Source: a virus | DNA: 22,622 nt | IMG/VR virus record: IMGVR_UViG_3300029319_000558 | Coordinates: 1-22,622 of that record | Strand: one strand, 5' to 3' | Part shown: positions 2,419 to 22,622 of the stretch, piece after piece | How the letters are laid out: the number at the start of each line of letters is the position of its first letter | How positions within the stretch are numbered: position 1 is the first letter of the stretch | Position numbers and translations under genes: made by a program | Notes under the pieces: model-generated | What the model saw: only the letters and a program-made list of their open reading frames with translations | Told to the model about the DNA's origin: nothing | Databases searched by the model: none

Positions 2419-3215
2419 TGGCTATCAGCAGAGCACAAATACCAGAGCAAGTAGACATATTTGAAGAAGGCGGAGGCGTAGGTGACGTTGTTTCTTCTTT
2501 GACGCCAGAGGATATTATTGCTTTGTACGGCGCACAAACTAGCGCACCAATCACAGCAGCAGATATACAAGCACAAGCAGCAGAAATGTCTGGTTTGTTT
2601 CCAGAGCCAAAAAAACAAAATATTTATGATTTAGCATCTGCTGTAGGTGCAGGTTTAGTTGGTGCTGCCTCAGATCCGCGTGGATTAGGTGCTGGCCTTA
2701 CTGCTGGCTTTCAATCATTTAATGAAAGAGCAAAAAAAATACAAGCAGAAAAAGATGCTATAAAACAACAAATGACAATGCTTGCGTATGAACAAGTACA
2801 AGCCAAACGAAAACAACAAGCTGAAACCTCTAACGAAGTTTTAAAAATGCAATTTAAAGCAGCTTTGGAGGGTAAAGGCAATATGTTTTCAGATGGCACT
2901 ACACAAGGCGCAGCTTTGAATTATATTTTATCTGCGGAAGCAAATCCTGCTCTAAAAGATACGCCAGAATATAAAATAGCAGTTGCTTTAGTAGAACAGA
3001 AAAAAACAACTTTTAGAACAACAGAAACGGGAACAATACCTGTTGAAGTGCCTGGTTTAAATATTGAAGAAATATTAGGACCACAAGACACACCAGTTCC
3101 CCCCACAATAGATATTGGTGAAACAACTTGGACTTTTACACAAAGAAGAGATCAAAATGGTGATCCTATTTATACAGATGGCGAAACAGAAAAAGTAATA
3201 AAACCAAAAACATGA
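2418..3215 (+). CDS. Virion-associated coiled-coil protein
   Basis: The gene starts with GTG, overlapping the previous stop by one base; GGAGGAAAG just upstream is a strong Shine-Dalgarno and fixes the start. The 265-residue protein has an Asp/Glu-rich N-terminus, a short Gly/Ala-rich hydrophobic stretch (about 75-100) and a long Lys/Gln/Glu helix (about 100-160) that looks like coiled coil. The C-terminal third is beta-like. I recognise no family with certainty. Position between ejection-type proteins and the ATGA overlap with the next gene suggest a virion protein working with its neighbour. In related phages the two regions may belong to one longer protein. Confidence 0.65.
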   Translation: MAISRAQIPEQVDIFEEGGGVGDVVSSLTPEDIIALYGAQTSAPITAADIQAQAAEMSGLFPEPKKQNIYDLASAVGAGLVGAASDPRGLGAGLTAGFQSFNERAKKIQAEKDAIKQQMTMLAYEQVQAKRKQQAETSNEVLKMQFKAALEGKGNMFSDGTTQGAALNYILSAEANPALKDTPEYKIAVALVEQKKTTFRTTETGTIPVEVPGLNIEEILGPQDTPVPPTIDIGETTWTFTQRRDQNGDPIYTDGETEKVIKPKT

Positions 3216-3823
3216 CACAAGAAATAGAATACATATTATCTGATCCAATAGAAGTACCACCTCCGCCTATACTACCAGGCACAGAAGTTTCTAAAGATCC
3301 TTTTACTGAGGCTCAAAAAAAACAAGCAGGATTTGCTTTGCGTATGGAAAGCTCGTTAAAACAGCTTGAGGCTTTGGAAAATGCAGGGTTTAATCCGGTC
3401 AACTTTCGTGATTTTTTTGTAAACAATATAATACCTTTTACACCAGAATTTATTGATAACTTTTTAAGTAGTCCTGAATATAAACAATATCAAAGAGCAA
3501 GATTAGATTTTGCGACCGCACAGTTAAGACAAGAAACTGGTGCTCAAATAAATGCAGGTGAAATTGTGTGGATAGACAAAACTTATTTTCCTGAATTTGG
3601 CGATGACCAACAAACTATTTTAGATAAAAGACAAGCGAGAAGAGATGCGCTGGCTGCTATGAAAGGACAGGCTGGCAAAGCATACGACAGAACAAAAAAA
3701 ACAATGATTGAAAGTGGCACTGGTTATGAAGAAGAAGAGGCATTGAATGAATTAATAAAAAGAGCTGAAAACGATCCGGAGCTAAAACAAAAACTAATTG
3801 AAAAAGGTTTGATTGATGAGTGA
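3212..3823 (+). CDS. Virion-associated protein with phage ejection-protein motif
   Basis: This 203-residue protein overlaps the previous stop as ATGA. Residues about 90-150 contain RQETGAQINAGEIV followed by a YFPEFGDDQQTI segment and a Lys/Arg/Ala helix. The pattern (R.E.GA.I...E...YFP..GD....I..K...R..A) recurs at the C-termini of internal or ejection proteins in many phages. Here it sits on a short separate polypeptide behind a Pro-rich N-terminus, so it may be the detached C-terminal part of a bipartite protein whose first half is the preceding gene. The role in DNA delivery is inferred. Confidence 0.65.
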   Translation: MTQEIEYILSDPIEVPPPPILPGTEVSKDPFTEAQKKQAGFALRMESSLKQLEALENAGFNPVNFRDFFVNNIIPFTPEFIDNFLSSPEYKQYQRARLDFATAQLRQETGAQINAGEIVWIDKTYFPEFGDDQQTILDKRQARRDALAAMKGQAGKAYDRTKKTMIESGTGYEEEEALNELIKRAENDPELKQKLIEKGLIDE

Positions 3824-6245
3824 TAGTAGAAAGAATACTTACGAAACATTAGAAGACAGCGCTTTAATTGAAATGGCGTTAGGCTCTAATGTAGTCGACA
3901 GAGAAAATGCCTATGAAGATATGCTAATTGAAAAGCTATCTTTAGAAAAAATAAAAAGCGGTATAGATAGAACCACAGGTGCTCCAAGTAATGTAAGGTT
4001 TAGCGTTGGAGCTGCTCAGAGTCCAGAAGATAAATTAGCTACACTTCAAGTATTTTATCCAGATGCTATGCGTGTAGAGGACTTAGATCCACAAAACGGA
4101 GCTATGGAATTTGGTTATGGCAACTTTGCTTTTACCAATCCCGAAACAGGAAAGCTAACTTTATATGATGAATTTAACCCAAAATTTTTAGGCGTACCGA
4201 TACCAACAGGTAGAGATTTTCTTGATGCTGGTCCAGAGGTAGCAGAAACAGTAGGAGCTATCGGCGGTATGATTGGCGGAGGTATCGGAGGTGCTTATGC
4301 AGCTCCCGTTACTGCTGGAATAGTAAATCCAGTAACCGGTGCTATAGCGGGAGAGGGTTTAGGATCTGCGACAGCAAGAGAGTTATACATAGGTATTGCA
4401 GATGTTTTTGGCGAAACAGTAGACACCAGAAATCTAGGTGAAAGAGCAGTAGATTTTACACAAACAGCTACATTCAATGCTGCTGCTGGGCCAATACTTA
4501 GCAAGACTTGGCAGGGTATAAAATATGTAGGAGGCCAACCCATAAGATATATGACAGGTGGTACCTCACCAGCAGCCAAAGAAACTTTAGAAGCGTTTGA
4601 TTCAGTAGGCATAACAAACCCAACAGCAGGACAGATTACCAGTAATCCAACTTTAAATTTAATTGAAGAAGGTTTGAGTGCCATGCCGACCTCCACAAAA
4701 ATTATGCACCAAAACGCTGCCCAAACTGTTGCTGAAATAGATGCTTTCGCTAAACAACTTGCCACAAAGTACGGAGGTATTAGGACTACAGATGAAGCTG
4801 GTTTAGCTTTAATGACAGGTGCTAGAGCAGCAAGACAAAGGTACACCAACACAATAGATCAAATGTATAACAAGGTAAACATTGGGTTAAATCAAGACAT
4901 TTCTTCACAAGCAAAACACACACAAGAATTTGTTAAAGAATATATGGCACAAGCTAAAACTGCAACTGGTGAAGATACACTAAAACCTGTTATGGAAATG
5001 GCGGCAAAAGTGCTAGCAGATGCCGACGCAGGTGTTTTAAATTACAACAATCTTAAAAACTTTAGAACTTATCTTAGACAAAATGAAGCCTCTGCAACAG
5101 CAGCGGGCGGTGAATTAGATGCGACTGGTAGAAAAATGAAGGAACTTTATGGCTATATATCTTTAGATCTTGCAGATTTAGTAGAAGAAGCTGGTAACGA
5201 TTTTTCTAAGCTAGCTTTTAGAGAAGCTAATGAATATGTTGCAAAAATGCAAGGCGAAGTTGGTGCTATTACATATTTAGATAACGTGATTGGTAAAGGA
5301 AAAGTAACTGCAAACAAAGCATTAAAATACGTTTTATCTGGAGCTAAAGATGGTGGCGATGATTTGCTAAAACTCAAAGAGGTTTTAAAACCAGATGAAT
5401 ACAATGTTATGTCTGGTTACATGCTTGGTAGAATGGGATTACCAACTCCAGGTGTATCGCAAGGTGTTGAGCTCGGAGCAGAGGGCGTTGTAAAAGAGGG
5501 TGCTGAATATATAGCCGAGCAAGGATTCTCACCAAAAAGATTTCTTACTAATTGGAACACTTTAAGTAAAGAGGCCAAAGAAGCATTATTTAAAGGAACT
5601 GAGTATGAAGACTTGATACCAGAATTAGATAATTTGGTATTTACAGTCGATAAAATAGGTCTTGCAGCACAACAAATGGCCAACCCAAGTGGAACTGCAA
5701 GAGTTGCAGGTACTATAGCTTACTTTACTGGGGGTTTAGGTGGTGGCGCTGGTGTTAGCTATGACTTTGGATTGGGCGCATTAGCTGCACCTTATATGAG
5801 CGCTAAACTTATGACTAACAAATCTTTTGTGCGTTGGCTAACCGAGGGTTTAGAAAAAACAGCTTATGATCCAGAAAGCTATGGGCAACACATAAGAAGG
5901 CTTTATCAAATCTATGAGCTAAACCCAGAGATTAGAGAAGAGGTCAGAGCAATACTTGAAGGACAACAATTTGAAACACTAGAGCCGATTGAAGACAGAA
6001 ATGCTGCTAATGTGCCACCTGTTACTACAGCTGTTCCAAACGAACAAGCCTTTAGAGAGGTTACAAATCCAGAGATTGCTGGCAAACTTTTACCGGATAT
6101 ACAGCTTGCAGAACAAGTAGTTGAGTTTGAAGCACCACAAGTTAGTGATCCAGAAGTTGTTATGTCGCCAACAGTTTTACCAGATGAAGCGGATAGAGAA
6201 ATTGCTATGCGTCAACAAGCTGGTGGGATTGGTTCTCTAGGGTAA
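3816..6245 (+). CDS. Large internal virion (ejection-type) protein
   Basis: I place the start at ATG 3816 rather than the in-frame TTG at 3813; it overlaps the previous gene by 8 bases. The product is about 809 residues. Residues about 140-190 form a Gly/Ala hydrophobic segment (GGMIGGGIGGAYAAP) that could cross or destabilise a membrane. The middle, about 260-560, is largely helical with coiled-coil character. A second Gly-rich hydrophobic stretch follows near 650-680, and the C-terminus is acidic. Size, hydrophobic glycine zippers, and position at the end of a virion block before early genes fit the large internal proteins that podoviruses eject with their DNA. No lytic transglycosylase motif was found. 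Confidence 0.65.
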   Translation: MSDSRKNTYETLEDSALIEMALGSNVVDRENAYEDMLIEKLSLEKIKSGIDRTTGAPSNVRFSVGAAQSPEDKLATLQVFYPDAMRVEDLDPQNGAMEFGYGNFAFTNPETGKLTLYDEFNPKFLGVPIPTGRDFLDAGPEVAETVGAIGGMIGGGIGGAYAAPVTAGIVNPVTGAIAGEGLGSATARELYIGIADVFGETVDTRNLGERAVDFTQTATFNAAAGPILSKTWQGIKYVGGQPIRYMTGGTSPAAKETLEAFDSVGITNPTAGQITSNPTLNLIEEGLSAMPTSTKIMHQNAAQTVAEIDAFAKQLATKYGGIRTTDEAGLALMTGARAARQRYTNTIDQMYNKVNIGLNQDISSQAKHTQEFVKEYMAQAKTATGEDTLKPVMEMAAKVLADADAGVLNYNNLKNFRTYLRQNEASATAAGGELDATGRKMKELYGYISLDLADLVEEAGNDFSKLAFREANEYVAKMQGEVGAITYLDNVIGKGKVTANKALKYVLSGAKDGGDDLLKLKEVLKPDEYNVMSGYMLGRMGLPTPGVSQGVELGAEGVVKEGAEYIAEQGFSPKRFLTNWNTLSKEAKEALFKGTEYEDLIPELDNLVFTVDKIGLAAQQMANPSGTARVAGTIAYFTGGLGGGAGVSYDFGLGALAAPYMSAKLMTNKSFVRWLTEGLEKTAYDPESYGQHIRRLYQIYELNPEIREEVRAILEGQQFETLEPIEDRNAANVPPVTTAVPNEQAFREVTNPEIAGKLLPDIQLAEQVVEFEAPQVSDPEVVMSPTVLPDEADREIAMRQQAGGIGSLG

Positions 6246-7001: not shown

Positions 7002-7715
7002 ATGTATCAACTGAAAAATTACTTACTGAGCATGCAGTCGCATTGGATGATTAACCATACGACATATAAGGCTGTCCAGGACACTTTGCCAGATATAGTA
7101 AAGTTCAAAGGTCAGCAGGGTATGGAGGATATGGGCAAAACTCCGATACACAAAGTTATAAAAAAGATACATCCAGAAATATACCGGGTGCCTTTATTTC
7201 GCCGCAAATTTTGTTCTATGTTAATTAAAGAAATAGAACACATGAAAAAAGAAATACCATTTGAGGCCAATACAGATGAGGACCAGCTGCGCCAAATACC
7301 AGAGATTGTATTGCGTGAACATGTCCCAGAGTTATATCGCAGCATGTGGTTTGTGGTACAAAGCGTACTTAATCCTATGTTCAATGCGATATGGCAAAGA
7401 GATTGTAAAGATCCGTCAACAATACAAATAGCTAACTATAATTTGCGAGATAAAAAACAAGGTGCCTGGCACCATGACGAAAGCGCTGATATTTCGGTGG
7501 TTGTGCCGCTCAATACTGGTAAGTATAAAGGCGGTGGCACCGCGTTTCACAACTACGGCGAAATAAGTCCGTTGCCAACGGGACATGCGCTAATCTTCCC
7601 AAGTTTCATCAATCTGCATAAGGGCCTGCCGGTCGAAAGCGGTGATAGATACCTGTTGGTTTTTTGGCTACATGATCGTCAAAGAATCATAGAATTGTAC
7701 GAAAACTACCTCTAA
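7002..7715 (+). CDS. 2OG-Fe(II) oxygenase (prolyl-hydroxylase-like), divergent unit
   Basis: This 237-residue protein has the C-terminal double-stranded beta-helix of 2-oxoglutarate/Fe(II) dioxygenases. The first iron motif is H157-H-D159 (AWHHDESADISVVVPLN), then GGGT (177-180), the distal iron ligand H206 (INLHKGLPV) and the likely 2OG-binding R216 (SGDRYLLVFW). The N-terminal about 140 residues are helical and unassigned. The fold couples 2OG decarboxylation to hydroxylation of a protein, peptide or small molecule; the substrate cannot be read. ATG 7002 has no Shine-Dalgarno and sits at the predicted transcription start; ATG 7032 is an alternative. It is unrelated in detail to the other two 2OG oxygenases here. 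Confidence 0.85.
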   Translation: MYQLKNYLLSMQSHWMINHTTYKAVQDTLPDIVKFKGQQGMEDMGKTPIHKVIKKIHPEIYRVPLFRRKFCSMLIKEIEHMKKEIPFEANTDEDQLRQIPEIVLREHVPELYRSMWFVVQSVLNPMFNAIWQRDCKDPSTIQIANYNLRDKKQGAWHHDESADISVVVPLNTGKYKGGGTAFHNYGEISPLPTGHALIFPSFINLHKGLPVESGDRYLLVFWLHDRQRIIELYENYL

Positions 7716-8314: not shown

Positions 8315-9091
8315 TCAATAAAGATCTGATAACTCTACAGTCTGGATTCCTTCCAAGTTGTAGGGTTTAAAATCATCATTATCTTTACATCTAAGTAATA
8401 GATCCAACGCTTGCTCATTCCTTTGGCGTGCATACACCAGCGCTTCATCTGATAAGGTATAGATCACATAAGGATATGGATGTTGCTTTTCTTGTGCTAA
8501 AAAGTTAAAACCTTTAGCAGTCAAACCTAGCTCTCTACAAGCGTCAACATAGAGTGCTGCTTGCATGTGATAGTTGAAGCTATTGATTGCGCCTCTAAAG
8601 CCACGAGGCGAAGCGTCACGGCATGTTTTAAGATCCCATACATATTCATTGTCATACCAATCCATACGACACTTAAAAGGATGGCCGTGCCATTCAAAGA
8701 CCAGAGTGTGCTCTACCTTATCGGTTTCTTTGGGTATGTAGTTTTTGACTACCTCCCGGCGTTCCATACAAACGTCATACAAGTCTTGAGTAATAGCTGT
8801 ACGATTACCAATGGTTTCCATAAAGTTTGCATATTCTTCTTTGCCGGATTTAGTTCTGCGGTCAAACTTTGGCTGAATTACAAACTCTTCACCAAACTTA
8901 TGGTGTTCTAAAAATACAGTGTGTTGCACTCGGCCCTCAAGTAGAGCTGGTGTTTGCACAATATCTTTTTTATTCTTCCAGCTGTACGGGCATTTGATGA
9001 CCGAAGTTAGATCGTGAGATCTAAAGGCTGGTATCTCTGCATACACTTCATAGGGTATGTCGTCATATATTCCTGGTTTAAACTCCTGCAT
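8315..9091 (-). CDS. PD-(D/E)XK nuclease, RecB/exonuclease VIII-like
   Basis: This 258-residue protein shows the RecB-type nuclease series: G53xxxH57 (EGRVQHTVF), an acidic strand around CRMDWY (D144), the metal site D153-L-K155 (VWDLKT) and the Q177xxxY181 motif (MQAALY). That order matches the Exo8-like PDDEXK family (DUF3799) of phages, which resect double-strand ends to give 3' tails for recombination. The SSB-like protein first in the same leftward operon would coat those tails. Its start overlaps the upstream oxygenase gene by 14 bases. No annealing protein of the RecT/Erf/Beta type is seen in the window. Confidence 0.85.
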   Translation of the reverse strand: MQEFKPGIYDDIPYEVYAEIPAFRSHDLTSVIKCPYSWKNKKDIVQTPALLEGRVQHTVFLEHHKFGEEFVIQPKFDRRTKSGKEEYANFMETIGNRTAITQDLYDVCMERREVVKNYIPKETDKVEHTLVFEWHGHPFKCRMDWYDNEYVWDLKTCRDASPRGFRGAINSFNYHMQAALYVDACRELGLTAKGFNFLAQEKQHPYPYVIYTLSDEALVYARQRNEQALDLLLRCKDNDDFKPYNLEGIQTVELSDLY

Positions 9092-9803
9092 TTTTTTTCA
9101 TCTCCTCTATTTCTTCTGGTGTTAAGTTAAAACAATTAAGATTGCCAGCAACAGTTCTGCGCTCTCCCTCACCAAAAAAAGGATAGACACAATGTTGCAT
9201 CCATGAAGGGAACAACAACAGCTTGCCGGGTTCTGGTTTGATGTATCGTGATTGAGAAGGACGCAAGCGTTCCGGATCTCCAATCTGATTTAAACCATAA
9301 GTAAAATTTATAAATCCATCTATAGAGCCAGAGCTTCTGTAAAGGTCATACCTTTTTTCAGCATCTTCATCTGGTCTGTGGATTTGTTCTGGAACTAAAG
9401 TCCAGGTAGTAAAAGATAATCCCATGTTGGATGCAGTTATATGATCGTGGATGGGATTATAGTCACCCTCAAAACTATGAACTGACCACAGCTTATCTAT
9501 ACTTATTTTCTTCGGCTGGAGAGGAGATTTGGTTAGCTCGACGAAATGTTTTAGATAAGCCATGCCCAGGTTCTCAACGATACTTACGAAAGGGAGTAGG
9601 CTCTGATCTGTGAAATCCATTTTTAATTGTTCGCCGTTATGTATCTGACCAACCAAAGTGTCAGATGCAGACTCACGTTTATCATTAGATCTCAAAGCAT
9701 CAAGATACTCGTTGAGAGTCGTCACTACCTCGGAGGGTAATTGGTGCTGCAACATAATTGCAGCTGGCAGAGAAAAAACTTGGTACTCAATTTGGTTACT
9801 CAT
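9078..9803 (-). CDS. 2OG-Fe(II) oxygenase, TIGR02466-like
   Basis: This 241-residue protein resembles the phage/cyanobacterial putative 2OG-Fe(II) oxygenase family TIGR02466. Features are SIDKLWSVHS leading to NPIHDH (H119-D-H121, the first iron motif with His where most families have Asp), the strand LLLFPSWMQHCVYPF with distal H204, and E-R-R at 214-216 as likely 2OG anchor. Between them lies an insert of about 50 residues (DEDAEKRYDLYRSS). The substrate is unknown. It sits inside a replication/recombination operon, overlapping both neighbours, so its expression is tied to DNA metabolism. The H-x-H arrangement is normal for this family as far as I recall. Confidence 0.8.
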   Translation of the reverse strand: MSNQIEYQVFSLPAAIMLQHQLPSEVVTTLNEYLDALRSNDKRESASDTLVGQIHNGEQLKMDFTDQSLLPFVSIVENLGMAYLKHFVELTKSPLQPKKISIDKLWSVHSFEGDYNPIHDHITASNMGLSFTTWTLVPEQIHRPDEDAEKRYDLYRSSGSIDGFINFTYGLNQIGDPERLRPSQSRYIKPEPGKLLLFPSWMQHCVYPFFGEGERRTVAGNLNCFNLTPEEIEEMKKNAGV

Positions 9804-10989: not shown

Positions 10990-13155
10990 ATGTCATTAAA
11001 AATAAAAGGACCTAACAAAAATTTCAACGCACCATTCACAAAAGATTATGTATCACAGTTTCAAGATTTTCTAGCCACCAATGGCTACGAACCCGATCCC
11101 AAAAAGGGACTGATTACCGATGGCTCGGTAGGTCGAGCGTACATCAACATTGGTAATCAGAGAAAGCTCGTCGGCTGGTATCAAGCATGGCTTGACCAAT
11201 CAACCCCCTTTGGCCGTATAGGTGATTATCGTATCAGCACGGACCAGCCGACAGCGATCTGGAAACCAGAGAACAGTCAAAAGTTTCGCATGACTAAAGA
11301 GCAACGCGCCGAGATTGAGGAGCTCAGACGCCAAGCCGAAGTCAAGTCAGCAGAAAAGTATTCGCAGGCCGCGCAGCGTTCGCAGTCTATTTGGGAGCAA
11401 TGTGAGGAAGTACAAAAACATGCTTACCTGGAAAAGAAACAAGTCTTGTCCTATGGGTTACGCAAAGACAAACATGATAATTTAGTTATCCCACTCAAAG
11501 ACAAGCAGGGTTCTATTGTTGGACTACAGTTTATCGCTCCCGATGGCACCAAGCGTTTTCTCACTGGTTCTAAAAAAAGCGGTAGCTTTTTTCTTCTCGG
11601 CAGAGAAATATTTAAAACAAGCGACAGCTTAAATTATGCCGAAGGCTATGCCACTGCCGCATCTATATACGCTGACCGCTCACAGCCGGTGGTCGTGGCT
11701 TTTGATGCTTACAACTTAGTCAAGGTCGCAGAGGTTATGTATCAGTATTTTCCAAGGCATAAGCACGTTTTTGTAGCTGATAATGATGATAGTAAAACAG
11801 GTGAGAAAGAAGCACAGAAGGCAGCAGCTTATATACAAAAGCAGGGCGGTTACGCCGAGATACAAATGCCAGAAACAAAGGGCGACTATAACGATCATAA
11901 GAACGAAGTTGAAGTGGTGGAAGGCGAAGTGATCTTGCAGAATGTCGATGTCCCGGTGGAGTACGACTTTAGTCGTAGTGCAAGCGGACGCTTCCTAAAC
12001 ACCAAAGACAATATAGGTGGGGTAATGAAAGTGCACAATATTGATGTGCGCTACAACGTGATAAAAAAGAAGATGGAGATAGACATACCAGACACAACCT
12101 TTATCGCTGACATGCAAGAAGAGGCGTCGCTGATTGAGGTTGAAAACCGATGTATCAATATGGGCATACCGCATACCAAGGTAAGGGATTATCTCAAGAT
12201 CTTAGCGCGTGAATACAACCCGGTAAAAGAATGGATTGATAGCGAGCCGTGGGATGGACAAGACCGACTACCTGCCTTTCTCAATTCGCTGACTACAGAG
12301 GAGTCCGCGCAGCTTCGAGATTTGCTACTCAAGAAATGGTTAATCTCTTGTGTGGCCGCAGCCTATGAAAAGAATGGCGTTGAGTTAGAGGGCATCCTCG
12401 TTTTGCAGGGCGCCCAAGGACTCGGTAAGACCTTATGGTTCAAGCGCCTATGTGATTACAATAAAGGCTGGCTCTTAGAGGGTGCAACGCTCAACCCTTC
12501 TGACAAGGACTCTGTAAAGAGAGCGGTGAGTCATTGGATTGTAGAGCTAGGCGAAATCGAGTCTACCTTTAAAAAATCCGACATAGACCAGCTGAAAGCG
12601 TTTGTGACGTCGAAGACGGATGAACTGAGGTTACCCTATGACCGAGCATTTACGACCTATCAGCGCCGCACGGCGTTTTATGCCAGTGTCAATGCCCGCG
12701 AGTTCTTAACGGACACGTCTGGGAATCGTAGATTCTGGGTACTCGCTGTCAGAGATATAGACGTCAATCACGGCGTCAACATGCAACAGTTGTGGGCCCA
12801 GGTCAAAGAAACAATGTATGTGCCTGGACAAAAGAATTGGTTTCTCTCGCCAGATGAGCGTGAGCTCTTGCAGGATAGTAATGAGCAATACCGAACACAA
12901 TCGAGTGTGGAGGATCTTATTCTAGAACATGTGGACTTTACGAGCGACCGCACCAAGGGAGTCCAGATGACTAAGCTCTTGCGCGATTTGGGGATCAAAT
13001 CCCCGAGGATGCCAGACTTCAAAGAAGCAAGCCGTGTCCTACACGAAAGAGGCATCGAGCCGCGCAGAAGTAATGGCAAGAAGATATATGACATAGATTA
13101 CACGCCAATAGAGGATGACCTGGGCGGATCATTAGGGAGTAATTGGAGTGATTAA
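10990..13155 (+). CDS. Primase-helicase with Toprim and VapE-type ATPase domains
   Basis: I use ATG 10990 over the in-frame TTG at 10987. The product is about 721 residues (numbering below from the TTG). The N-terminal part holds a Toprim-type primase domain, about 160-300: E219 (NYAEGYATA), then D240, D265 and D267 (FVADNDDS). The C-terminal part is a VapE/VirE-type superfamily-3-like ATPase: Walker A GAQGLGKT (475-482), Walker B WIVELGEIE (517-525), and a sensor/arginine segment ending TSGNRRFW (577-584). The last about 80 residues are basic and winged-helix-like. It should prime and unwind at the phage origin. The start lacks a strong Shine-Dalgarno. G+C is visibly higher than in the methyltransferase genes behind it. 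Confidence 0.88.
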   Translation: MSLKIKGPNKNFNAPFTKDYVSQFQDFLATNGYEPDPKKGLITDGSVGRAYINIGNQRKLVGWYQAWLDQSTPFGRIGDYRISTDQPTAIWKPENSQKFRMTKEQRAEIEELRRQAEVKSAEKYSQAAQRSQSIWEQCEEVQKHAYLEKKQVLSYGLRKDKHDNLVIPLKDKQGSIVGLQFIAPDGTKRFLTGSKKSGSFFLLGREIFKTSDSLNYAEGYATAASIYADRSQPVVVAFDAYNLVKVAEVMYQYFPRHKHVFVADNDDSKTGEKEAQKAAAYIQKQGGYAEIQMPETKGDYNDHKNEVEVVEGEVILQNVDVPVEYDFSRSASGRFLNTKDNIGGVMKVHNIDVRYNVIKKKMEIDIPDTTFIADMQEEASLIEVENRCINMGIPHTKVRDYLKILAREYNPVKEWIDSEPWDGQDRLPAFLNSLTTEESAQLRDLLLKKWLISCVAAAYEKNGVELEGILVLQGAQGLGKTLWFKRLCDYNKGWLLEGATLNPSDKDSVKRAVSHWIVELGEIESTFKKSDIDQLKAFVTSKTDELRLPYDRAFTTYQRRTAFYASVNAREFLTDTSGNRRFWVLAVRDIDVNHGVNMQQLWAQVKETMYVPGQKNWFLSPDERELLQDSNEQYRTQSSVEDLILEHVDFTSDRTKGVQMTKLLRDLGIKSPRMPDFKEASRVLHERGIEPRRSNGKKIYDIDYTPIEDDLGGSLGSNWSD

Positions 13156-13711
13156 ATTACCAGATAAAAAGTACAATATTATTTATGCTGATCCGCCTTG
13201 GAGTTTTGGAAGTAAAGAGTTGCAAAAGTATGGTGGTGTTAGATTTACAAGCATGGATAAACATTACCCAACACAATCGAAAAGATGGATTAAAGATTTA
13301 CCCGTAAAAAATATTACTCGTCAAGACTGCGCTTTGTTTATGTGGTCAACAGACGCACACATCGAAGATGCAATACAAACTATGCGTAGTTGGGGTTTTA
13401 AGTATGTAACTGTAATATTTGTTTGGGAAAAGCTAACAAAAACAGGTAAGACAGTTGCTAATTTAGGAGCTTGGACAATGAAAAATTATGAGCTATGTTT
13501 GTTTGGAACGAAAGGAAGTATGTTAAAACACAAGCAGGTTAATAATATATATCAAAAGGTAGCAGCAGAGAGAACAAAACACTCAAAAAAACCTAACGAA
13601 GTTAGAATAAGAATTGAAAAGTTGTTTGGCGATCTTCCGAAAATAGAACTATTTGCAAGAGAAAAAGTAAAAGGTTGGGATTGTTGGGGTGACGAGATAG
13701 TAGATGATTGA
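13148..13711 (+). CDS. MT-A70-type N6-adenine DNA methyltransferase
   Basis: The start is GTG, 8 bases before the primase stop, with AGGGAG upstream. The 187-residue protein carries NIIYADPPWSFG (catalytic DPPW at 15-18), CALFMWSTDAHIEDA and the C-terminal ELFAREKVKGWDCWGDE, all diagnostic of the MT-A70 family, whose phage and bacterial members methylate adenine N6 in DNA. No restriction enzyme is adjacent, so it is probably an orphan enzyme protecting the phage genome or altering regulatory sites. Base composition drops sharply at its start compared with the primase, suggesting separate acquisition. Confidence 0.88.
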   Translation: MIKLPDKKYNIIYADPPWSFGSKELQKYGGVRFTSMDKHYPTQSKRWIKDLPVKNITRQDCALFMWSTDAHIEDAIQTMRSWGFKYVTVIFVWEKLTKTGKTVANLGAWTMKNYELCLFGTKGSMLKHKQVNNIYQKVAAERTKHSKKPNEVRIRIEKLFGDLPKIELFAREKVKGWDCWGDEIVDD

Positions 13712-14513
13712 GAAAGTAAAACAAGTAATAGGTAATAGTACGTTGTATTGTGCTGATTGTGATGCGGTGGTGCGGAGTTTATTAGACAACTCTATAGATA
13801 TTGTTGTTAGTAGTCCGCCCTACAATATTGGCAGAGAGTATGGTTTGTATCAAGATAGAAAAATTAATTATCTTGAGTGGCAGATAAATTTATGGAACGA
13901 GGTTTGCAAAAAAATGTCTGATACGGGCCATGTATTTTTAAATATACAGCCATCAAGAAAAAATCCGCTATGGTGCTATGAGTTAGTATCTGCGTTAGAT
14001 TGGACAATACAAAACACTTTTATTTGGAATAAGAGAATTGAAATAGATGGATATGTGCGGGGACAAGGTACTACATCACAAAGCAAAAAATATATATGCA
14101 ATGGTTGGGAGTATGTTTTTCATTTAACAAAAAAAGGTAAAACAGAAATATCACAAAAGCAAAGCGGTGTTAGTTACCACCCAAAATGGGCAGAAGAAAA
14201 CGCAAAACGCTTTGGCAAAACTTGGAGGCCTACTGTAAATTCTTGGCATATACCTTACGAAACAATAGGACATGGAAAAATTAGTAAAGATAAAATGAAA
14301 AGCAATCACCCTGCAATATTTCCTAAAAAACTTGTAGAAAAGTGTATTAAAGTCACTGGCATTAAAAAGGGCCTAATACTAGATCCGTTTGTTGGAACAG
14401 GAACAACTTGTATTGTTGCAGATCAAATGGGTTTTGAATCAATCGGCATAGACATAAACTCTGATTATATAGCTTTTGCATTAAAGAAATTACAGGAGAA
14501 GGTCGATGATTGA
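13704..14513 (+). CDS. Beta-class DNA methyltransferase (N4-cytosine or N6-adenine)
   Basis: The ATG overlaps the previous stop by 8 bases. The 269-residue protein has the catalytic motif SPPY at 37-40 (VVSSPPYNIG) near the N-terminus and the SAM-binding motif DPFVGTGTT (227-235), followed by GIDIN, near the C-terminus. This order defines the beta class. SPPY is commoner in N4-cytosine enzymes, but N6-adenine activity cannot be excluded. The target-recognition region would be about 60-200. It is paired with the MT-A70 enzyme, shares its AT-rich composition, and has no restriction partner. Confidence 0.88.
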   Translation: MIEKVKQVIGNSTLYCADCDAVVRSLLDNSIDIVVSSPPYNIGREYGLYQDRKINYLEWQINLWNEVCKKMSDTGHVFLNIQPSRKNPLWCYELVSALDWTIQNTFIWNKRIEIDGYVRGQGTTSQSKKYICNGWEYVFHLTKKGKTEISQKQSGVSYHPKWAEENAKRFGKTWRPTVNSWHIPYETIGHGKISKDKMKSNHPAIFPKKLVEKCIKVTGIKKGLILDPFVGTGTTCIVADQMGFESIGIDINSDYIAFALKKLQEKVDD

Positions 14514-15721: not shown

Positions 15722-16141
15722 ATGCCGATTAACTCCAGAAATAAAGGCGCAGCATTTGAACGTGACATTGCAAAGATCCTCAATGGTTTTTTTGCCGACA
15801 ACGACATCGATTTCCAGACCAAACGCAACCTAGACCAATACCAACAAAAAGATCTATGCGATTTGGATATACCCTTTCATGCGGTTGAGTGCAAATTCTA
15901 CAAAGAAGGCGAATGGTTAAAGTCCGCCTGGTGGGATCAAGTTTGCAGTGCCAGTAATGGCAAGATTCCTGTATTGATATTTAAGTTCAACCGCAGACCG
16001 ATTCGTGTTTGCATACCCTTGTATGCGATTAACCTAGAGTGGCCGCACGAAAACGACAAAATCTGTGTCATGGCGATAGATGATTGGCTTGATACGCTAA
16101 AAAATAACTGGCAGAACTATGAGCGACAATATTCTACCTAA
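15722..16141 (+). CDS. PD-(D/E)XK endonuclease, Holliday-junction-resolvase-like
   Basis: This 139-residue protein opens with NSRNKGAAFERDIAKIL, the conserved Gly/Glu helix of small archaeal-type resolvases and related phage nucleases (E13). The region DLCDLDIPFHAVECKFYKEG follows, with an Asp before E56-C-K58, the metal-binding core. Such phage enzymes cut branched DNA before packaging or during recombination. The size suits this group. It overlaps the next gene by 23 bases. The ATG has no strong Shine-Dalgarno. A VRR-NUC-type nuclease is the main alternative. Confidence 0.7.
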   Translation: MPINSRNKGAAFERDIAKILNGFFADNDIDFQTKRNLDQYQQKDLCDLDIPFHAVECKFYKEGEWLKSAWWDQVCSASNGKIPVLIFKFNRRPIRVCIPLYAINLEWPHENDKICVMAIDDWLDTLKNNWQNYERQYST

Positions 16142-16673
16142 TCACGGCGTAACTGGTCTGTCTGTCAGCCAAGATGATGTAGAACTGTTCTTAGATTATG
16201 TAGTTGAAGCCGAGGGAATTGTGGCCAAAGTGCACGATAAAGGCGATGAAATCGAGCAAACAACTGTCCGGGACGCTACTATTTATTATATTGATGAAAA
16301 ACAGACGCGTTTGTATCAAATTTTGAACAAAATTGCCTTTTCAGCCAATAAATACTTCAAATATGACATTACTGGAATAGAAAAAGCGCAGATAATTCAC
16401 TATAAAGCGCCATCTAACGGCTATGAATACCATTTGGACATAGGACCAGAGGGTACAGCTGCTACACGCAAGATCAGTATGAGCCTTTTGCTAAACGAAG
16501 ACTACGAAGGCGGCGAAATTTGCTTCCGTTCCAGCGAAAATGAAAGCTGTACGCGGCCAAAGATGGGTGAAGTGGTAGCATTTAGCTCGTTTTTGTCACA
16601 TAAAGTCAAACCTGTGACCAAAGGCGACAGATATGTAGTTGTTGCTTGGTTTAACGGACCGCCGTTTCGTTAG
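16119..16673 (+). CDS. 2OG-Fe(II) oxygenase, P4H/PKHD-like
   Basis: This 184-residue protein is the shortest of three 2OG oxygenases here. Motifs: H105-L-D107 (YEYHLDIGP), the strand ISMSLLLNEDYEGGEICF, distal H161 (FLSHKVKPV) and R171 (KGDRYVVVAWF). This is the standard prolyl-4-hydroxylase-type core, close to the PKHD/PiuC-like phage enzymes. The substrate is unknown. The ATG lies inside the nuclease gene (23-base overlap), implying coupled translation. The end overlaps the convergent minus-strand gene by 23 bases. Confidence 0.85.
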   Translation: MSDNILPNHGVTGLSVSQDDVELFLDYVVEAEGIVAKVHDKGDEIEQTTVRDATIYYIDEKQTRLYQILNKIAFSANKYFKYDITGIEKAQIIHYKAPSNGYEYHLDIGPEGTAATRKISMSLLLNEDYEGGEICFRSSENESCTRPKMGEVVAFSSFLSHKVKPVTKGDRYVVVAWFNGPPFR

Positions 16674-18194: not shown

Positions 18195-18857
18195 ATGAAA
18201 ATATTAATAGCTTGTGAAACCAGCGGCATAGTTCGTGAGGCGTTTCTTGCTTCTGGCCATGATGCTTGGTCGTGTGACATCTTAAAATCAGATGTAGCCA
18301 CAAACAGACATATCCAGGACGACGTTAGAAATGTTTTAGCAATGGATGACTGGGATATGTTGATGGTTGCACATCCGCCATGCACTAGACTTTGTTTGTC
18401 TGGAGCCAGGTGGTATAAGGTGCCACCACCAGGTAAGACATTAGAACAAATGGAACAAGAACTAATAGATGGTTGTCAGCTGTTGTCTGATCTTTGGAAC
18501 GCAGATGTACCAAAAATCGCTATCGAGAATCCAGTAATGTTATCCAAAGCAAGAAAAAAAATCCAAGAAATATCTGATAGAGAGTTTCCCTGGAATCCTA
18601 CACAATATGTTCAACCCTACGAATTTGCAGAAAGTATAGATGCAGAAGACAACATAACAAAAAAAACAAGTCTTTGGCTAAAGAACCTGCCGCCACTAAT
18701 ACCGACAGGAACGCTAACAAAAGAAACAGCCAGGGACGATATACACAAAGCACCCCCTGGACCAGACAGATGGAAAATAAGAAGTAAGTTTCATCACGGC
18801 ATGGCCAAAGCCATGGCAGAACAATGGGGTGGCAATTTAATTAAGGAGGTAGCATGA
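18195..18857 (+). CDS. C5-cytosine DNA methyltransferase (Dcm-like, short form)
   Basis: This 220-residue protein starts with the SAM-binding motif ILIACETSGIVREAF, then has catalytic HPPC (60-63, HPPCTRLCLSG) and the ENP motif (111-113, variant of ENV). This is the C5-cytosine methyltransferase series, compressed; the target-recognition region after 120 is short compared with 300-400-residue enzymes. Such short forms are frequent in phages. Product: 5-methylcytosine at an unknown site, or an altered cytosine substrate. Shine-Dalgarno AAGGAGG is present, and the stop overlaps the next ATG (ATGA). Confidence 0.8.
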   Translation: MKILIACETSGIVREAFLASGHDAWSCDILKSDVATNRHIQDDVRNVLAMDDWDMLMVAHPPCTRLCLSGARWYKVPPPGKTLEQMEQELIDGCQLLSDLWNADVPKIAIENPVMLSKARKKIQEISDREFPWNPTQYVQPYEFAESIDAEDNITKKTSLWLKNLPPLIPTGTLTKETARDDIHKAPPGPDRWKIRSKFHHGMAKAMAEQWGGNLIKEVA

Positions 18858-19441
18858 AAACAATCCCGGTTACATTGCAGCTTGCTAAAATCTTTTACAG
18901 CGAGTTTCATAAAACCAACAAACCACCAGTAGGCCACAAGAAAAGTTATGTGGCCTTACTTGGTGACGAGTGGACTAAGTGCATAATGGTTGATCCGATA
19001 GATCTACCAGAAGCCTGGTTGAAAGACGAACACGAGGATCTAAGGGTTAGGTACGACGATGCTGGCGATTGGTATTTATACACCAGAGGACAGATAGTTG
19101 GTATCTGCACAATCGGCAGGCCCGTAGCTAGGTGGACAGATCCTAAAGTATATGAGTTTACTAGGATATGTTTTGAGTTCAATCCCAAAACTAACAAAGA
19201 AAAAAAGTATTACAGCAAGTTTATTAGACAAGCCATGTCCGATTTTCAGCTGTACCACCAGGTATCTAAATTTGTGACTTACATACACGATTACCAAAGC
19301 GGCAGATATTTAGAATACGCTGGATTCAAAAAAGATAAGCACATCAAATACAGTGCAAACAACAAAGGCTGGGCAACCAGGCCCAACAGATCACATTCAG
19401 ATTTAAAACCAAAACTAAGATTTATTAAGGAGGCAGCATGA
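18854..19441 (+). CDS. GNAT-like protein of the XF1762/Mom type
   Basis: This 195-residue protein has NKPPVGHKKS (22-31), VGICTIGRPVAR (82-93), EFTRICF (101-107), a helix with YYSKFIRQA and FVTYIHDYQSGRYLEYAGF (140-158). The order matches the XF1762 family of GNAT-fold proteins and recalls phage Mu Mom, which adds a group to adenine N6 in DNA. Whether it acts on DNA is inferred from its ATGA overlap with a cytosine methyltransferase. It also overlaps the recombinase start by ATGA. Alternative: acetylation of a protein or small molecule. Confidence 0.65.
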   Translation: MKTIPVTLQLAKIFYSEFHKTNKPPVGHKKSYVALLGDEWTKCIMVDPIDLPEAWLKDEHEDLRVRYDDAGDWYLYTRGQIVGICTIGRPVARWTDPKVYEFTRICFEFNPKTNKEKKYYSKFIRQAMSDFQLYHQVSKFVTYIHDYQSGRYLEYAGFKKDKHIKYSANNKGWATRPNRSHSDLKPKLRFIKEAA

Positions 19442-20226
19442 TTGAACCAAGAAAACAAGTAAACAATATCTACGGCTATATCAGAGTATCATCTGAGCAG
19501 CAGGTTAAAGACGGATCTTCACTTGAGGAGCAAAAGAAGTCGATTGAGGAGTTTGTTGCTAACAAATACGGCGGCAGGAAAGTTGACAAGTTCTTTACCG
19601 ACGCTGGCATTAGTGGCATGAAGCCATTGCTTGATAGGCCAGGCTCTAGAGAGCTGACTGACACTATGGACGCTAACGATGTGATAGTAGCAACCAAGTT
19701 AGATAGGCTTGCGAGATCTTTTTTAGAAATGGTCAACATGATTCCTGCCCTAGAAGATACAGGTATCACACTCTACTTCTGCGATATGTTTGCAGATATA
19801 CCAGTGGTTTTGCCCAGGCAAAAAGAACAAACGGGCCTAGCAGCAAAAATGGATATGACCAGAATAGCTAACCAAAATCTAGTGACCAATATGGCGCAGT
19901 TTGCTGAGATAGAAAGAGAAATGATTATGTCTAGGCTCAACGGCGGCAAGTTAGTCTATGCGGAAAAAGGTTACTCGATCGGTGGCAAGACACCTTTTGG
20001 CTATAGAAAAGAATACGACGAATCTGGTAGCAGAAGAAGAACTAAGCTAGTGCCAGTTCCAGAGGAGCAAGCGGTTCTTAAACACATCAAAGCGCTTAGA
20101 GAGAAAGGTTTGGGTGCTAGAAAGATAGCTACGCAGATACAAAATTCACATCCAGGCTATGAGGACTTTCCGTATCACAAAGTTCAGAGGATTCTTATGA
20201 GAAAGTTCCAAGGCCTTCACGATTAG
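19438..20226 (+). CDS. Serine recombinase (resolvase/invertase-like)
   Basis: The start overlaps the preceding TGA (ATGA) and has AAGGAGG upstream. In 262 residues it shows YIRVSS (14-19, catalytic Ser probably S18), GISG at 57-60, KLDRLARS (87-94) and AEIEREMIMSRLNGG (156-170): the full resolvase catalytic domain. A stretch about 121-148 (ADIPVVLPRQKEQ) is longer than usual. The first part of a Recombinase domain follows (GKTPFGYRKEY, GARKIATQI). It lacks the C-terminal zinc ribbon and coiled coil of large integrases, so inversion or resolution is likelier than integration. No crossover site or invertible segment was recognised nearby. Confidence 0.85.
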   Translation: MIEPRKQVNNIYGYIRVSSEQQVKDGSSLEEQKKSIEEFVANKYGGRKVDKFFTDAGISGMKPLLDRPGSRELTDTMDANDVIVATKLDRLARSFLEMVNMIPALEDTGITLYFCDMFADIPVVLPRQKEQTGLAAKMDMTRIANQNLVTNMAQFAEIEREMIMSRLNGGKLVYAEKGYSIGGKTPFGYRKEYDESGSRRRTKLVPVPEEQAVLKHIKALREKGLGARKIATQIQNSHPGYEDFPYHKVQRILMRKFQGLHD

Positions 20227-20245: not shown

Positions 20246-20251
20246 TATAAT
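20246..20251 (+). promoter_or_regulatory. Consensus -10 box directly before the kinase-toxin-like gene
   Basis: TATAAT lies 6 bases before ATG 20258, with no Shine-Dalgarno; the mRNA would start at or next to the ATG. At the standard spacing the -35 (TTAGAA, 20223-20228) is weak. Confidence 0.45.
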
Positions 20252-20257
20252 CATAAA

Positions 20258-21532
20258 ATGCGCGACATCAACGACATAAACATATTTGACAGAGCTATGT
20301 CCTTTGAGGATATAAATGACATCTTGTTGACAGCTCCTCGAACAGATATATCTCAATACATAAAACCCGATGACAGAGATTTTCTAGACAAAAGCATAGA
20401 AGAATACGAAGCAAACGTACCTTTGCTCACGCAAATAGGCGTAGGCTTTACTCCACCAGGTATGGCCATAGATGTTGCAGCTGCCGGTAAGTACGGCCGC
20501 GATGCTTTTAGAGATTTTGGCGAAGGCGAAATAGGTGAGGGGTTCAAAAATCTTGGTATCGCAGGATTATCTGGTCTTGCTGCGATTCCGCTAGTTGGTG
20601 AGCTTGCAGCTCTAGCCAAGCAACCAGTAAAAGCAACTCTAAAAGCGCCTGGAGGTATTAGGTCTTTGGACGAAGACATGTTAGATCTGCAAAAAATATT
20701 AGATGATCCAAAACTCTCTAATGCAGACAAAGCTAAACAAATAGAAAATCATCCAGCTATAGTCAAAGCTGAAAAGAAAATGAACGACATTATACCAACA
20801 GAACAAATGCCTGGATATGGCACTCCGGAGTGGGCAGCCAATAGACAATTTAATTTTGCTGGCAAAGATGTTGTTGGATATTCAGCTGCCGCAGATGAGC
20901 TTTATCAAGGCGGCAGATCTTTAGCCTATATTGAACAGGGATTAGAAGTTCCAGCAAATGTTATGGCAAAAAACTCTGGTAAAAAAATTGCTACTATAGT
21001 TATCGGTCCACCAGCAGCAGGAAAAAGTGCAATTTCAAACCCGCTTGCAATTAAATATAACGCCACGATTATAGATCCAGACGAAGCAAAAAAAGTTCTT
21101 CCAGAGTTTCAAGGGGGTGTAGGTGGCAATGCTGTACATGCAGAGTCACAAGCAATAATCAACGATGTTGCTGAAATCGCAATGCAAAGAGGTGATAATT
21201 TATTATTTCCAACTGTAGGAGGCAACCCGCAAAAAATTAGAAACAAAATAAACATTCTAAAAGACAATGGTTATGAGGTAAATTTGGTTTTAACAGACCT
21301 AGATCCAGATTTAGCCATGGTAAGGATGAACCAAAGGTTCATCAAAAAAGGACGTTTGATAAATTCCGATGCAGCAAATAACTATAAAGGAAAACCAAAC
21401 AAAACGTATGATATATTAAAAAAGGAGGGTATAGCAGATGGTTATGGAAAAATCGACACAACCACAAGGATTGGCGAGCCTAAAACAATCTTCGACGACA
21501 CCGCAGAAATCTTCAAAGACACTAATCTTTGA
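20258..21532 (+). CDS. Zeta-toxin-like P-loop kinase with virion/pre-toxin-like N-terminus
   Basis: This 424-residue protein has two parts. Residues about 240-424 resemble a zeta-type kinase: Walker A GPPAAGKS (250-257), IIDPDEAKKVLPEF (271-284, acidic catalytic candidates D273/D275), NAVHAESQAI (291-300) and the arginine-rich VRMNQRFIKKGRL. Zeta enzymes phosphorylate UDP-N-acetylglucosamine-type sugars and block cell-wall synthesis. Residues about 1-130 are acidic, then Gly/Ala hydrophobic (GFTPPGMAIDVAAAGKYGRD and LAAIPLVGEL), like pre-toxin segments or ejected virion proteins. Both ends of the gene are intact. No epsilon antitoxin is recognised, but the small gene overlapping its end is a candidate. 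It may be an injected effector or an early anti-host kinase. Function is inferred. Confidence 0.7.
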   Translation: MRDINDINIFDRAMSFEDINDILLTAPRTDISQYIKPDDRDFLDKSIEEYEANVPLLTQIGVGFTPPGMAIDVAAAGKYGRDAFRDFGEGEIGEGFKNLGIAGLSGLAAIPLVGELAALAKQPVKATLKAPGGIRSLDEDMLDLQKILDDPKLSNADKAKQIENHPAIVKAEKKMNDIIPTEQMPGYGTPEWAANRQFNFAGKDVVGYSAAADELYQGGRSLAYIEQGLEVPANVMAKNSGKKIATIVIGPPAAGKSAISNPLAIKYNATIIDPDEAKKVLPEFQGGVGGNAVHAESQAIINDVAEIAMQRGDNLLFPTVGGNPQKIRNKINILKDNGYEVNLVLTDLDPDLAMVRMNQRFIKKGRLINSDAANNYKGKPNKTYDILKKEGIADGYGKIDTTTRIGEPKTIFDDTAEIFKDTNL

Positions 21533-21623
21533 TTACGATGCAGCCGAAGACAGAGGCGAAGCTATGGCAAAAACAGCTGTGCACCGACAGGTAGTGCAAG
21601 ATGTATTAAAAAAATATGACTAA
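21438..21623 (+). CDS. 61-residue protein overlapping the kinase gene end
   Basis: The start ATG 21438 has AAGGAGGG 9 bases upstream and lies 95 bases inside the kinase gene in another frame. The product is polar, Gln/Ser/Lys-rich at first (MEKSTQPQGLASLKQSSTTP), then LIFDYDAAEDRGEAMAKTAV and a basic helix to QDVLKKYD. I recognise no family. The strong ribosome site and the end outside the overlap support it. An antitoxin role is conceivable from position alone. Confidence 0.5.
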   Translation: MVMEKSTQPQGLASLKQSSTTPQKSSKTLIFDYDAAEDRGEAMAKTAVHRQVVQDVLKKYD

Positions 21624-21753
21624 CAAAGAAAAAATCATAGCGGCTATAGCAAAAATAGACTCGATGCTGAGTTTAGACTTTATGACGGATCCTGTAAGGG
21701 AGGAGCTCAATAATGTCAAAACCTTGCTAGTAGAAGTCCGCGACAGTATGTAA
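21616..21753 (+). CDS. 45-residue hypothetical protein
   Basis: The ATG overlaps the stop of the previous gene by 8 bases; the stop TAA overlaps the next ATG by one base (TAATG). The product MTNKEKIIAAIAKIDSMLSL continues as an acidic amphipathic helix (REELNNVKTLLVEVRDSM). No family is recognised. It tiles exactly between two genes, supporting real translation. The Shine-Dalgarno is poor, so it is probably coupled. Confidence 0.45.
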   Translation: MTNKEKIIAAIAKIDSMLSLDFMTDPVREELNNVKTLLVEVRDSM

Positions 21754-22337
21754 TGGCCAACATTAACGGCTGGGGTAGAGGCACCTGGGGACAAGGCGCT
21801 TGGGGTACAGCTCTACCGGTAGAATTATCTAGTGTTGGATCAATAACCTCTGGTCTTGGCAGCGTAACTGTTGTTGCTAAAGCTAACGTAGTTCCAGCCA
21901 CTCAAGTTATAACCTCTGGACTAGGAACAACTAGCGTTATTGCAGCAGCGATTGTCCAGGTCACAGGCCAAGCAATTACATCTGGCTTGGGAGCTCCGGG
22001 AGTAGTTGCAAAAGCTAATGTAACGCCAGCTACACAAAGTATCACGTCAGCCATTGGATCGGTAATTGTTCACGAAAACGAGGTCATAAATCTAACTGGC
22101 TTTGATGTAGCTGCAAATTTAGGCACACCAACCATAGATGCTGGAGCTATAGTTAGCATTACAGGTCTAAGCGTAACAGCGAGTGCAGGCTTTATTATGG
22201 TGTACGGAGAGATAGATACTGACCAAACTCCAAGCTATGCAGAGGTGAGTACCACACAAACACCTAGCTACTCAGAGGTTGCGACAAGTCAAACTCCAAA
22301 CTATACTGTTATAGACGCTGGCAGAGATGCAGCATGA
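21753..22337 (+). CDS. Repeat-rich tail adaptor/fibre-associated protein
   Basis: This 194-residue protein starts MANINGWGRGTWGQGAWGT, a Gly/Trp pattern typical of a marine phage protein found just before tail fibre genes. Residues about 25-110 hold three or four copies of a beta repeat with TSGLG or TSAIG and Val/Ala strands. Residues about 150-190 hold three 11-residue repeats built on QTPSYAEV, QTPSYSEV and QTPNYTVI. The repeats suggest an elongated beta structure on the tail. TAATG overlap with the upstream gene implies coupling. Molecular role is inferred. Confidence 0.65.
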   Translation: MANINGWGRGTWGQGAWGTALPVELSSVGSITSGLGSVTVVAKANVVPATQVITSGLGTTSVIAAAIVQVTGQAITSGLGAPGVVAKANVTPATQSITSAIGSVIVHENEVINLTGFDVAANLGTPTIDAGAIVSITGLSVTASAGFIMVYGEIDTDQTPSYAEVSTTQTPSYSEVATSQTPNYTVIDAGRDAA

Positions 22338-22357: not shown

Positions 22358-22622
22358 ATGGCAACGTATGTAAACGATTTAAGACTGAAAGAGATAGGCA
22401 CTGGAGAATCCAGTGGTACCTGGGGATCTGAAACAAATACCAATTTAGAATTAATCGGTGAAGCGCTTGGCTTTGGCACGGAGGCCATAACCACTAACGC
22501 CGATACACACACCACAACTGTAGCCGATGGATCGACTGATCCAGGTAGAGCTATGTATATCAAATACACAGGTGCTTTAGATTCTAACTGTACGATTACG
22601 ATTGCACCGAACACCATGAGTA
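22358..22622 (+). CDS. Tail fibre protein, N-terminal part (cut off by window end)
   Basis: The ATG is preceded by AGAGGA at 10 bases. The frame is open to the window end (88 codons visible). The N-terminus MATYVNDLRLKEIGTGESSG, then TWGSETNTNLELIGEAL, is a common start of tail fibre proteins in marine phages (a segment attaching the fibre to the tail). The C-terminal, host-binding part lies outside the window. It follows the repeat-rich adaptor, completing the tail module. Confidence 0.7.
   Translation, partial: MATYVNDLRLKEIGTGESSGTWGSETNTNLELIGEALGFGTEAITTNADTHTTTVADGSTDPGRAMYIKYTGALDSNCTITIAPNTMS

Follow-up and report, generated by a model that had tools for sequence, protein, structure and literature searches.

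A zeta-like kinase as an exchangeable, probable effector encoded between the serine recombinase and tail genes of uncultured phages

Introduction

What role does a kinase resembling bacterial zeta toxins have beside the tail genes of a phage? The question is raised by a 22,622-base IMG/VR virus record, analysed here over its whole length and referred to as the window, in which the gene concerned is present in one copy. A preliminary description had read its product as a kinase-toxin-like protein with a virion-like or pre-toxin-like front that, if carried in the virion, would be injected with the DNA. The occurrence of zeta-like kinases in polyvalent phage proteins, on which that description drew, is already on record: zeta-like kinases and RelA/SpoT domains have been described in MuF and polyvalent phage proteins, and injection has been proposed (Iyer et al. 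2017, PMC5512222). Our main reading, which we consider reasonably probable, is of a polymorphic phage effector in which a virion-delivered head carries a swappable kinase acting on a host small molecule.

Kinase domain

The open reading frame was confirmed, and the features of its kinase portion are as follows.

20258..21532, + strand: effector gene of 424 AA, consisting of head, linker and zeta-like kinase; ATG start, frame open
21005..21028, + strand: Walker A motif GPPAAGKS, residues 250-257; G250, G255, K256 and S257 invariant among 87 kinases
21074..21082, + strand: DPD, residues 273-275; D275 aligned by profile with the catalytic Asp of zeta (D67) and PezT (D66)
21209..21220, + strand: PTVG, residues 318-321, in place of EGTG, with V320 at zeta's T118 in the alignment
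21335..21355, + strand: R360 to R366, the conserved arginines of the kinase (R360 in 86/86, R366 in 81/86)

The proposed zeta-like C-terminal core was borne out by a Pfam search, which matched residues 239-390 to Zeta_toxin (PF06414) far above chance (61.3 bits against a cut-off of 22.3, E 1.1e-16). Its motifs could all be placed, with GPPAAGKS at residues 250-257, DPDEAKKVLPEF beginning at residue 273 and HAES at 294-297, and an alignment of the kinases showed K256, S257, D275 and H294 to be invariant in 87/87. R360 pairs with an Arg of PezT in the alignment. The catalytic role of D66/D67 in PezT and zeta has been described, and a change of D66 to Thr abolished the toxicity of PezT (PMC3062530). 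When the kinase-family profile was compared with PDB sequences, zeta ranked first (E 5.8e-10) and PezT third (8.2e-07).

An AlphaFold2 model of the 424-AA protein, built with 12 aligned sequences, was poorly defined over residues 1-136 (pLDDT below 50) and reached mostly 76-97 from residue 141 onwards. The structural comparison with zeta toxin that the preliminary description had suggested gave a predicted zeta fold with the catalytic Asp present as D275; the closest solved structure was zeta 1gvn_B (Z 17.8, rmsd 2.8 over 200 residues), and 3q8x (Z 17.7), PezT (16.6), AvrRxo1 (14.9) and a polynucleotide kinase (14.1) were further matches. As judged from alignment and model, the payload is a zeta-superfamily kinase whose catalytic core is kept. 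Bacterial and T4 polynucleotide kinases are also among the fold matches (Z 12-14), as would be expected of an accessory metabolic, nucleic-acid or RNA-repair kinase fused by chance to a structural protein and having no effector role. We hold this reading to be highly improbable, since zeta and PezT score clearly higher and since alarmone-synthetase and ART-like modules, known elsewhere as effector domains, take the place of this payload in the same slot.

Sugar pocket and substrate

The contacts of zeta with UDP-GlcNAc (UNAG) are D67, E100, T118, R120 and T128 (PMC3062530), and their equivalents in the profile alignment are D275, N302, V320, G322 and K330, so that the sugar pocket expected of a zeta toxin was not recovered. 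V320, at the position of zeta's beta-phosphate contact T118, is Val in 85/87 kinases, and the same change in PezT gives a nontoxic variant (PMC3062530). Among the 87 kinases, Glu occurs at position 302 in only 30, position 322 varies without Arg among its common residues, and position 330 varies with Thr in 7. A true zeta toxin, which would phosphorylate UDP-GlcNAc and weaken the wall of the cell while the DNA enters, as has been proposed for the zeta kinases of polyvalent proteins (PMC5512222), would share the fold and the catalytic Asp seen here, but the Val at T118 and the replacement of R120 by Gly, T128 by Lys and E100 by Asn make it very unlikely. Because zeta's UNAG contacts are missing, the substrate of the kinase probably differs from UDP-GlcNAc; the loss of the pocket also makes toxicity by zeta's known route unlikely, a point that we count against the effector reading.

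AvrRxo1 may serve as a precedent by analogy, as it combines a zeta-like fold (Z 14.9) with a substrate other than UDP-GlcNAc, described as NAD, and like the proposed phage effector it is delivered, but it differs in being a plant-pathogen effector.

Slot organization and payload exchange

The kinase gene occupies a slot with the following parts.

19438..20226, + strand: serine recombinase, 262 AA, left border of the slot (Pfam Resolvase E 8.9e-26; PHROG integrase/invertase)
20246..20251, + strand: TATAAT -10 box, 6 nt before the ATG; putative leaderless start
20258..20668, + strand: head, residues 1-137, Gly/Ala-rich, common to slot-mates with other payloads
20669..21529, + strand: exchangeable payload of linker and zeta-like kinase, residues 138-424 (homology to locus L008, AlphaFold2 model, fold match)
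21616..21753, + strand: resident 45-AA ORF, outside the payload, directly after the promoter in empty slots
21753..22337, + strand: tail-region gene, right border of the slot, kept across the slot survey
22358..22622, + strand: start of a tail-fibre gene, cut by the end of the window, with a full homologue in locus L002

That tail genes adjoin the effector, as the preliminary description had it, was confirmed through the downstream gene at 22358, whose L002 homologue (704 AA) matches tail-fibre PHROGs (best E 3e-18); the tail-region gene before it had no PHROG match. We searched for further slots with the window's recombinase as query and obtained 52 loci, numbered with the prefix L, in 41 of which the slot was complete; all are uncultured contigs, some from near-identical genomes, and the counts are of contigs and not of independent events. 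This kinase filled 7 of the 41 complete slots, a second module, here called RelSpo, filled 26, nearly always on the same head as the kinase, and 8 held neither. Seven of these 8 were clean, running from the promoter through the 45-AA ORF to the tail gene, and the eighth (L132) was rearranged. That seven sister phages manage without the gene counts against an effector reading. The 45-AA ORF, which had no family match above the cut-off, was considered as an antitoxin and rejected because it also occurs in slots without the effector.

Exchange was seen in both directions. The head is shared with L006 at 61-65% identity, with a different C-terminus, and in L008 the linker and kinase are 76% identical to those of the window on an unrelated head, which is in turn related (E 1e-8) to the head of L109, where the payload is RelSpo. 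At the DNA level, L119 (kinase) and L118 (RelSpo) are 94% identical over the recombinase and the head up to codon 107, unrelated over the payload, and 90% identical again after it. Based on these data, we concluded that a constant head is joined to a variable C-terminal enzyme, the same head occurring with different payloads and the same payload with different heads, and that the slot between the serine recombinase and the tail genes holds an exchangeable effector, of which the window's gene is one version. Inverted or direct repeats that could be crossover sites of the recombinase were sought around the slot, and within the window only short, chance-like ones were found; we therefore do not attribute the exchange to the recombinase. 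A separate case of head exchange was seen in a second slot, after a nuclease-like gene, where the kinase parts of L009 and L010 are 98.6% identical and their heads only 47%.

Pfam RelA_SpoT matched six RelSpo members under its cut-off (E 0.0017-0.04), and ART-PolyVal matched one (E 0.0087). In the predicted structure of the L106 protein, residues 112-335 were well modelled and resembled an exported small alarmone synthetase (Z 13.8), SAS1 (13.2), SAS2 (13.0) and the type VI effector Tas1 (12.8), the first 26 structural matches all being RelA/SpoT-type enzymes. On the strength of this model, the alternative payload appears to be an alarmone-synthetase-type module, sometimes with an ART-like domain. 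Five members (L111, L124, L140, L141 and L144) have an extra segment between head and RelSpo that by eye resembles a ParB-type nuclease.

All versions of the slot share the promoter. In 29/29 slot genes, divergent ones included, the start codon follows TATAAT by 6-8 nt, and where the slot is empty the box stands ahead of the 45-AA ORF. The leaderless -10 box noted earlier is thus conserved, and a leaderless transcript is likely. The accompanying suggestion of immediate early expression is not supported, because the same promoter precedes the slot even without an effector.

Other genes of the window and its relatives

The appearance of its relatives hints at a marine source for the window. Three proteins of the window (7002-7715, 9078-9803 and 16119-16673) are by eye 2-oxoglutarate/iron oxygenase-like, and methyltransferase-like genes together with a Mom-like DNA-modification gene (PHROG 1384, E 7e-7) lie at 13148-14513 and 18195-19441. 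In L002, one different methyltransferase-like gene of 363 AA replaces the first methyltransferase-like pair of the window, and DNA modification genes therefore differ between close relatives. Downstream of phage tail and holin-like genes, three loci (L002 15737-18328, L003 7268-11604 and L006 18846-20415) carry genes for CsgG (E 1e-47), a curlin-repeat-like protein and a FecR-domain protein, followed in L003 by a membrane cyclase predicted by eye. Either the phages carry a curli-like locus, or these genes are host DNA flanking a shared integration site.

Small overlapping ORFs

Each payload type is accompanied by a small ORF overlapping the effector gene. That of the kinase is:

21438..21623, + strand: +1-frame ORF of 61 AA, overlapping the end of the kinase gene; same position in 12 kinase genes

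In these 12 genes the +1 ORF has 58-70 codons, the same conserved start place (ATG in 11/12) and a conserved C-terminus, and the overlap stayed open in 1-42% of the synonymous recoding trials of each gene. In L119, the DNA exchanged relative to L118 ends on the right at the stop of this ORF. The kinase gene ends in CTT TGA, the RF2-type sequence for programmed +1 frameshifting, which is conserved in the closest group of kinase genes. Other kinase relatives end in ATT TAA, AGA TGA, AGA TAA or GAA TGA, and in L139 and L147 the kinase frame reads through; because of these varied endings and the read-through, we prefer a separate overlapping +1 ORF to programmed frameshifting.

With RelSpo genes the small ORF is antisense, has 74-81 AA and a net charge of -5 to -12, and is present in 26/26 complete RelSpo slots and in 0/7 kinase slots. 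Members of this acidic family (L104 6968-7204, antisense, and others) are convergent with the effector genes, contain W..GPAV...FGVIG..LP.LP and had no significant Pfam or PHROG match. A conserved, promoter-like TTGTA(A/G)-17 nt-TAAACT-like stretch precedes the ATG, but as it sits within the effector's own codons, its conservation is not independent proof. Divergence by codon position was 0.160, 0.173 and 0.465 in the antisense overlap and 0.324, 0.224 and 0.536 in the core; the first position being the least divergent in the overlap fits the antisense frame as the constrained one, by a small margin. RelSpo-type genes with different heads and in different contexts (L246, L260, L263, L264, L266, L269, L273 and L274) likewise have the acidic gene convergent at their 3' end. 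There is no overlap between the two in L246, and the overlapped tail is therefore dispensable for the effector. Strict specificity of the acidic gene for RelSpo was rejected, as the gene facing it in L265, L267 and L268 encodes a large protein without a match to the RelSpo profile, which may represent a further type of payload.

The small ORFs of both payloads are candidate partner or immunity proteins. Bolder still, and in our view possible rather than probable, would be a new phage polymorphic effector family in which whole toxin-immunity cassettes swap behind a conserved leaderless promoter, the immunity genes being hidden in the toxin-gene overlap (antisense for the alarmone synthetase, +1 frame for the zeta-like kinase) and the kinase substrate not being UDP-GlcNAc.

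Head and link to the virion

The Gly/Ala-rich hydrophobic N-terminus given in the preliminary description proved measurable. In a composition scan, the best 80-AA stretch of the 424-AA protein has 35% G+A and lies within the head. For comparison, 4/5 ejection-module and tail-region proteins of the window have 31-47%, and 23% is not exceeded by the fifth of these, an ejection-module protein, or by any tested replication, methylation or other protein of the window; in composition, the head groups with the ejection proteins. The pre-toxin-like front found no support in profiles: the search for named virion or pre-toxin families, run with 14 heads against Pfam and PHROGs, gave no match with E <0.04, and tblastn of the head against phage genomes gave nothing significant. 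MuF (PF04233) is missing from the 424-AA protein and from the heads in a scan that detects it in gp030 of cyanophage P-SS2. Heads of kinase and RelSpo slot types aligned by hhalign over 26 columns (probability 50%, E 1.7e-4), but the alignments behind this are thin and we do not count it as proof. A head that is poorly modelled and matches no profile counts against an injected effector.

The gene neighbourhoods of the kinase relatives point to the virion. In 57 of 83 distinct kinase contigs, the gene adjoins a gp15-like gene and/or a PHROG 684 virion protein (or lineage variants of these), and in 47 it sits between the two. The order is tail protein (PHROG 376), internal virion protein (PHROG 418), gp15-like protein, kinase fusion, PHROG 684 protein and tail fibre, and the cluster around most kinase relatives is a T7-like internal-virion-protein cluster. 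The kinase gene follows DNA-ejection proteins in L008 and the large terminase in L017. Within the window, it lies beside recombinase and tail-fibre genes and outside the ejection cluster (583-6245), a point against the main reading, so that virion carriage in this phage is a prediction from its relatives. A further relative, P-SS2 gp030, has both MuF (E 1.7e-8) and Zeta_toxin (E 9.8e-22) by Pfam, and ORF 030, which has the same coordinates, was represented in purified virions by 96.5 peptides on average, where the tape measure protein had 102 (PMC2784084). By analogy with such relatives, virion delivery of the window's effector is plausible. P-SS2 ORF 030 (NC_013021.1 17648-22147) was published as the 'major capsid protein', yet its Pfam domains are MuF and zeta; it is an abundant virion protein with a kinase domain.

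These findings bear on a further explanation, that the gene encodes a prophage effector or toxin which is not virion-borne, acts in the lysogen or is freed at lysis against competitors or superinfecting phages, and has the small overlapping ORFs as immunity genes. The position beside a serine recombinase, the leaderless promoter that also stands ahead of empty slots, and the swapping of partner-like small genes with the payload, expected if the producing cell needs protection, all fit it. We nevertheless judge it unlikely, given that most kinase relatives lie within T7-like internal-virion-protein clusters, that a MuF and zeta relative is found in virions, and that the head resembles ejection proteins in composition.

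In the main reading, a virion-delivered polymorphic effector, the Gly/Ala-rich head (residues 1 to ~130) would place the protein in the virion and take it through the ejection path, and the enzyme fused to it would be exchangeable, in the window's phage a zeta-superfamily kinase. Expressed from the leaderless promoter just upstream of the tail-fibre genes, the protein would most likely enter the host cell together with the DNA, where the kinase may use ATP to phosphorylate a host small molecule and so block or redirect host metabolism. In sister phages the same head would carry an alarmone synthetase, in some cases with an ART-like domain added, and a small overlapping ORF, possibly an immunity peptide, would come with each type of payload. 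Taken as a whole, the preliminary description was right about the zeta-type kinase fold, the catalytic Asp and the Gly/Ala-rich head, and was not upheld in the sugar pocket, the match to a pre-toxin or virion family and immediate early expression.

Comparison with known systems and significance

The payload is like the Zeta/PezT toxins (PF06414) in fold, Walker A, catalytic Asp (D275 for zeta D67) and conserved Arg, but it differs from them in the replaced UNAG contacts (T118, R120, T128) and in its fusion to a phage head. No epsilon-type antitoxin gene was found directly upstream, where the window has the serine recombinase, and the small overlapping ORF lies downstream. With polyvalent proteins and MuF fusions (PMC5512222) the slot protein shares effector enzyme domains, a location near virion genes and predicted injection, but it lacks MuF, is small and two-part, has a head unmatched to any known family, alternates between kinase and RelSpo in one slot, and is associated with payload-specific overlapping small ORFs. 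The MuF polymorphic toxins of temperate phages (PMC5576092) similarly have a constant N-terminus, a variable C-terminal toxin and a neighbouring small gene that may confer immunity; the slot protein has another head, and its candidate partners are encoded in overlap with the toxin gene, on the antisense strand or out of frame. P-SS2 gp030 is alike in being a virion-associated protein of a marine phage with a zeta domain, found in virions by published MS, and differs in its MuF head, its 1499 AA and its place beside the portal gene. A literature search gave no papers on zeta kinases in podovirus ejection proteins among the matches listed. What is new, as far as our searches show, is that the head is not MuF, that one slot holds either of two enzymes with a clean DNA exchange between them, that zeta's UNAG contacts have been lost, and that each payload has its own small overlapping ORF.

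Zeta-like kinases and alarmone synthetases, enzymes of toxin-antitoxin and secretion systems, are interchangeable payloads in one slot of uncultured phages, which predicts virion-delivered (or lysogen-protecting) enzymes acting on host small-molecule pools. The two small overlapping ORF families are offered as testable immunity candidates, and the loss of UNAG contacts over 87 kinases makes the substrate question directly testable. Because sister phages hold an alarmone-synthetase enzyme or nothing in the same slot, our results suggest that these phages swap protein weapons, probably delivered to or acting inside the host cell.
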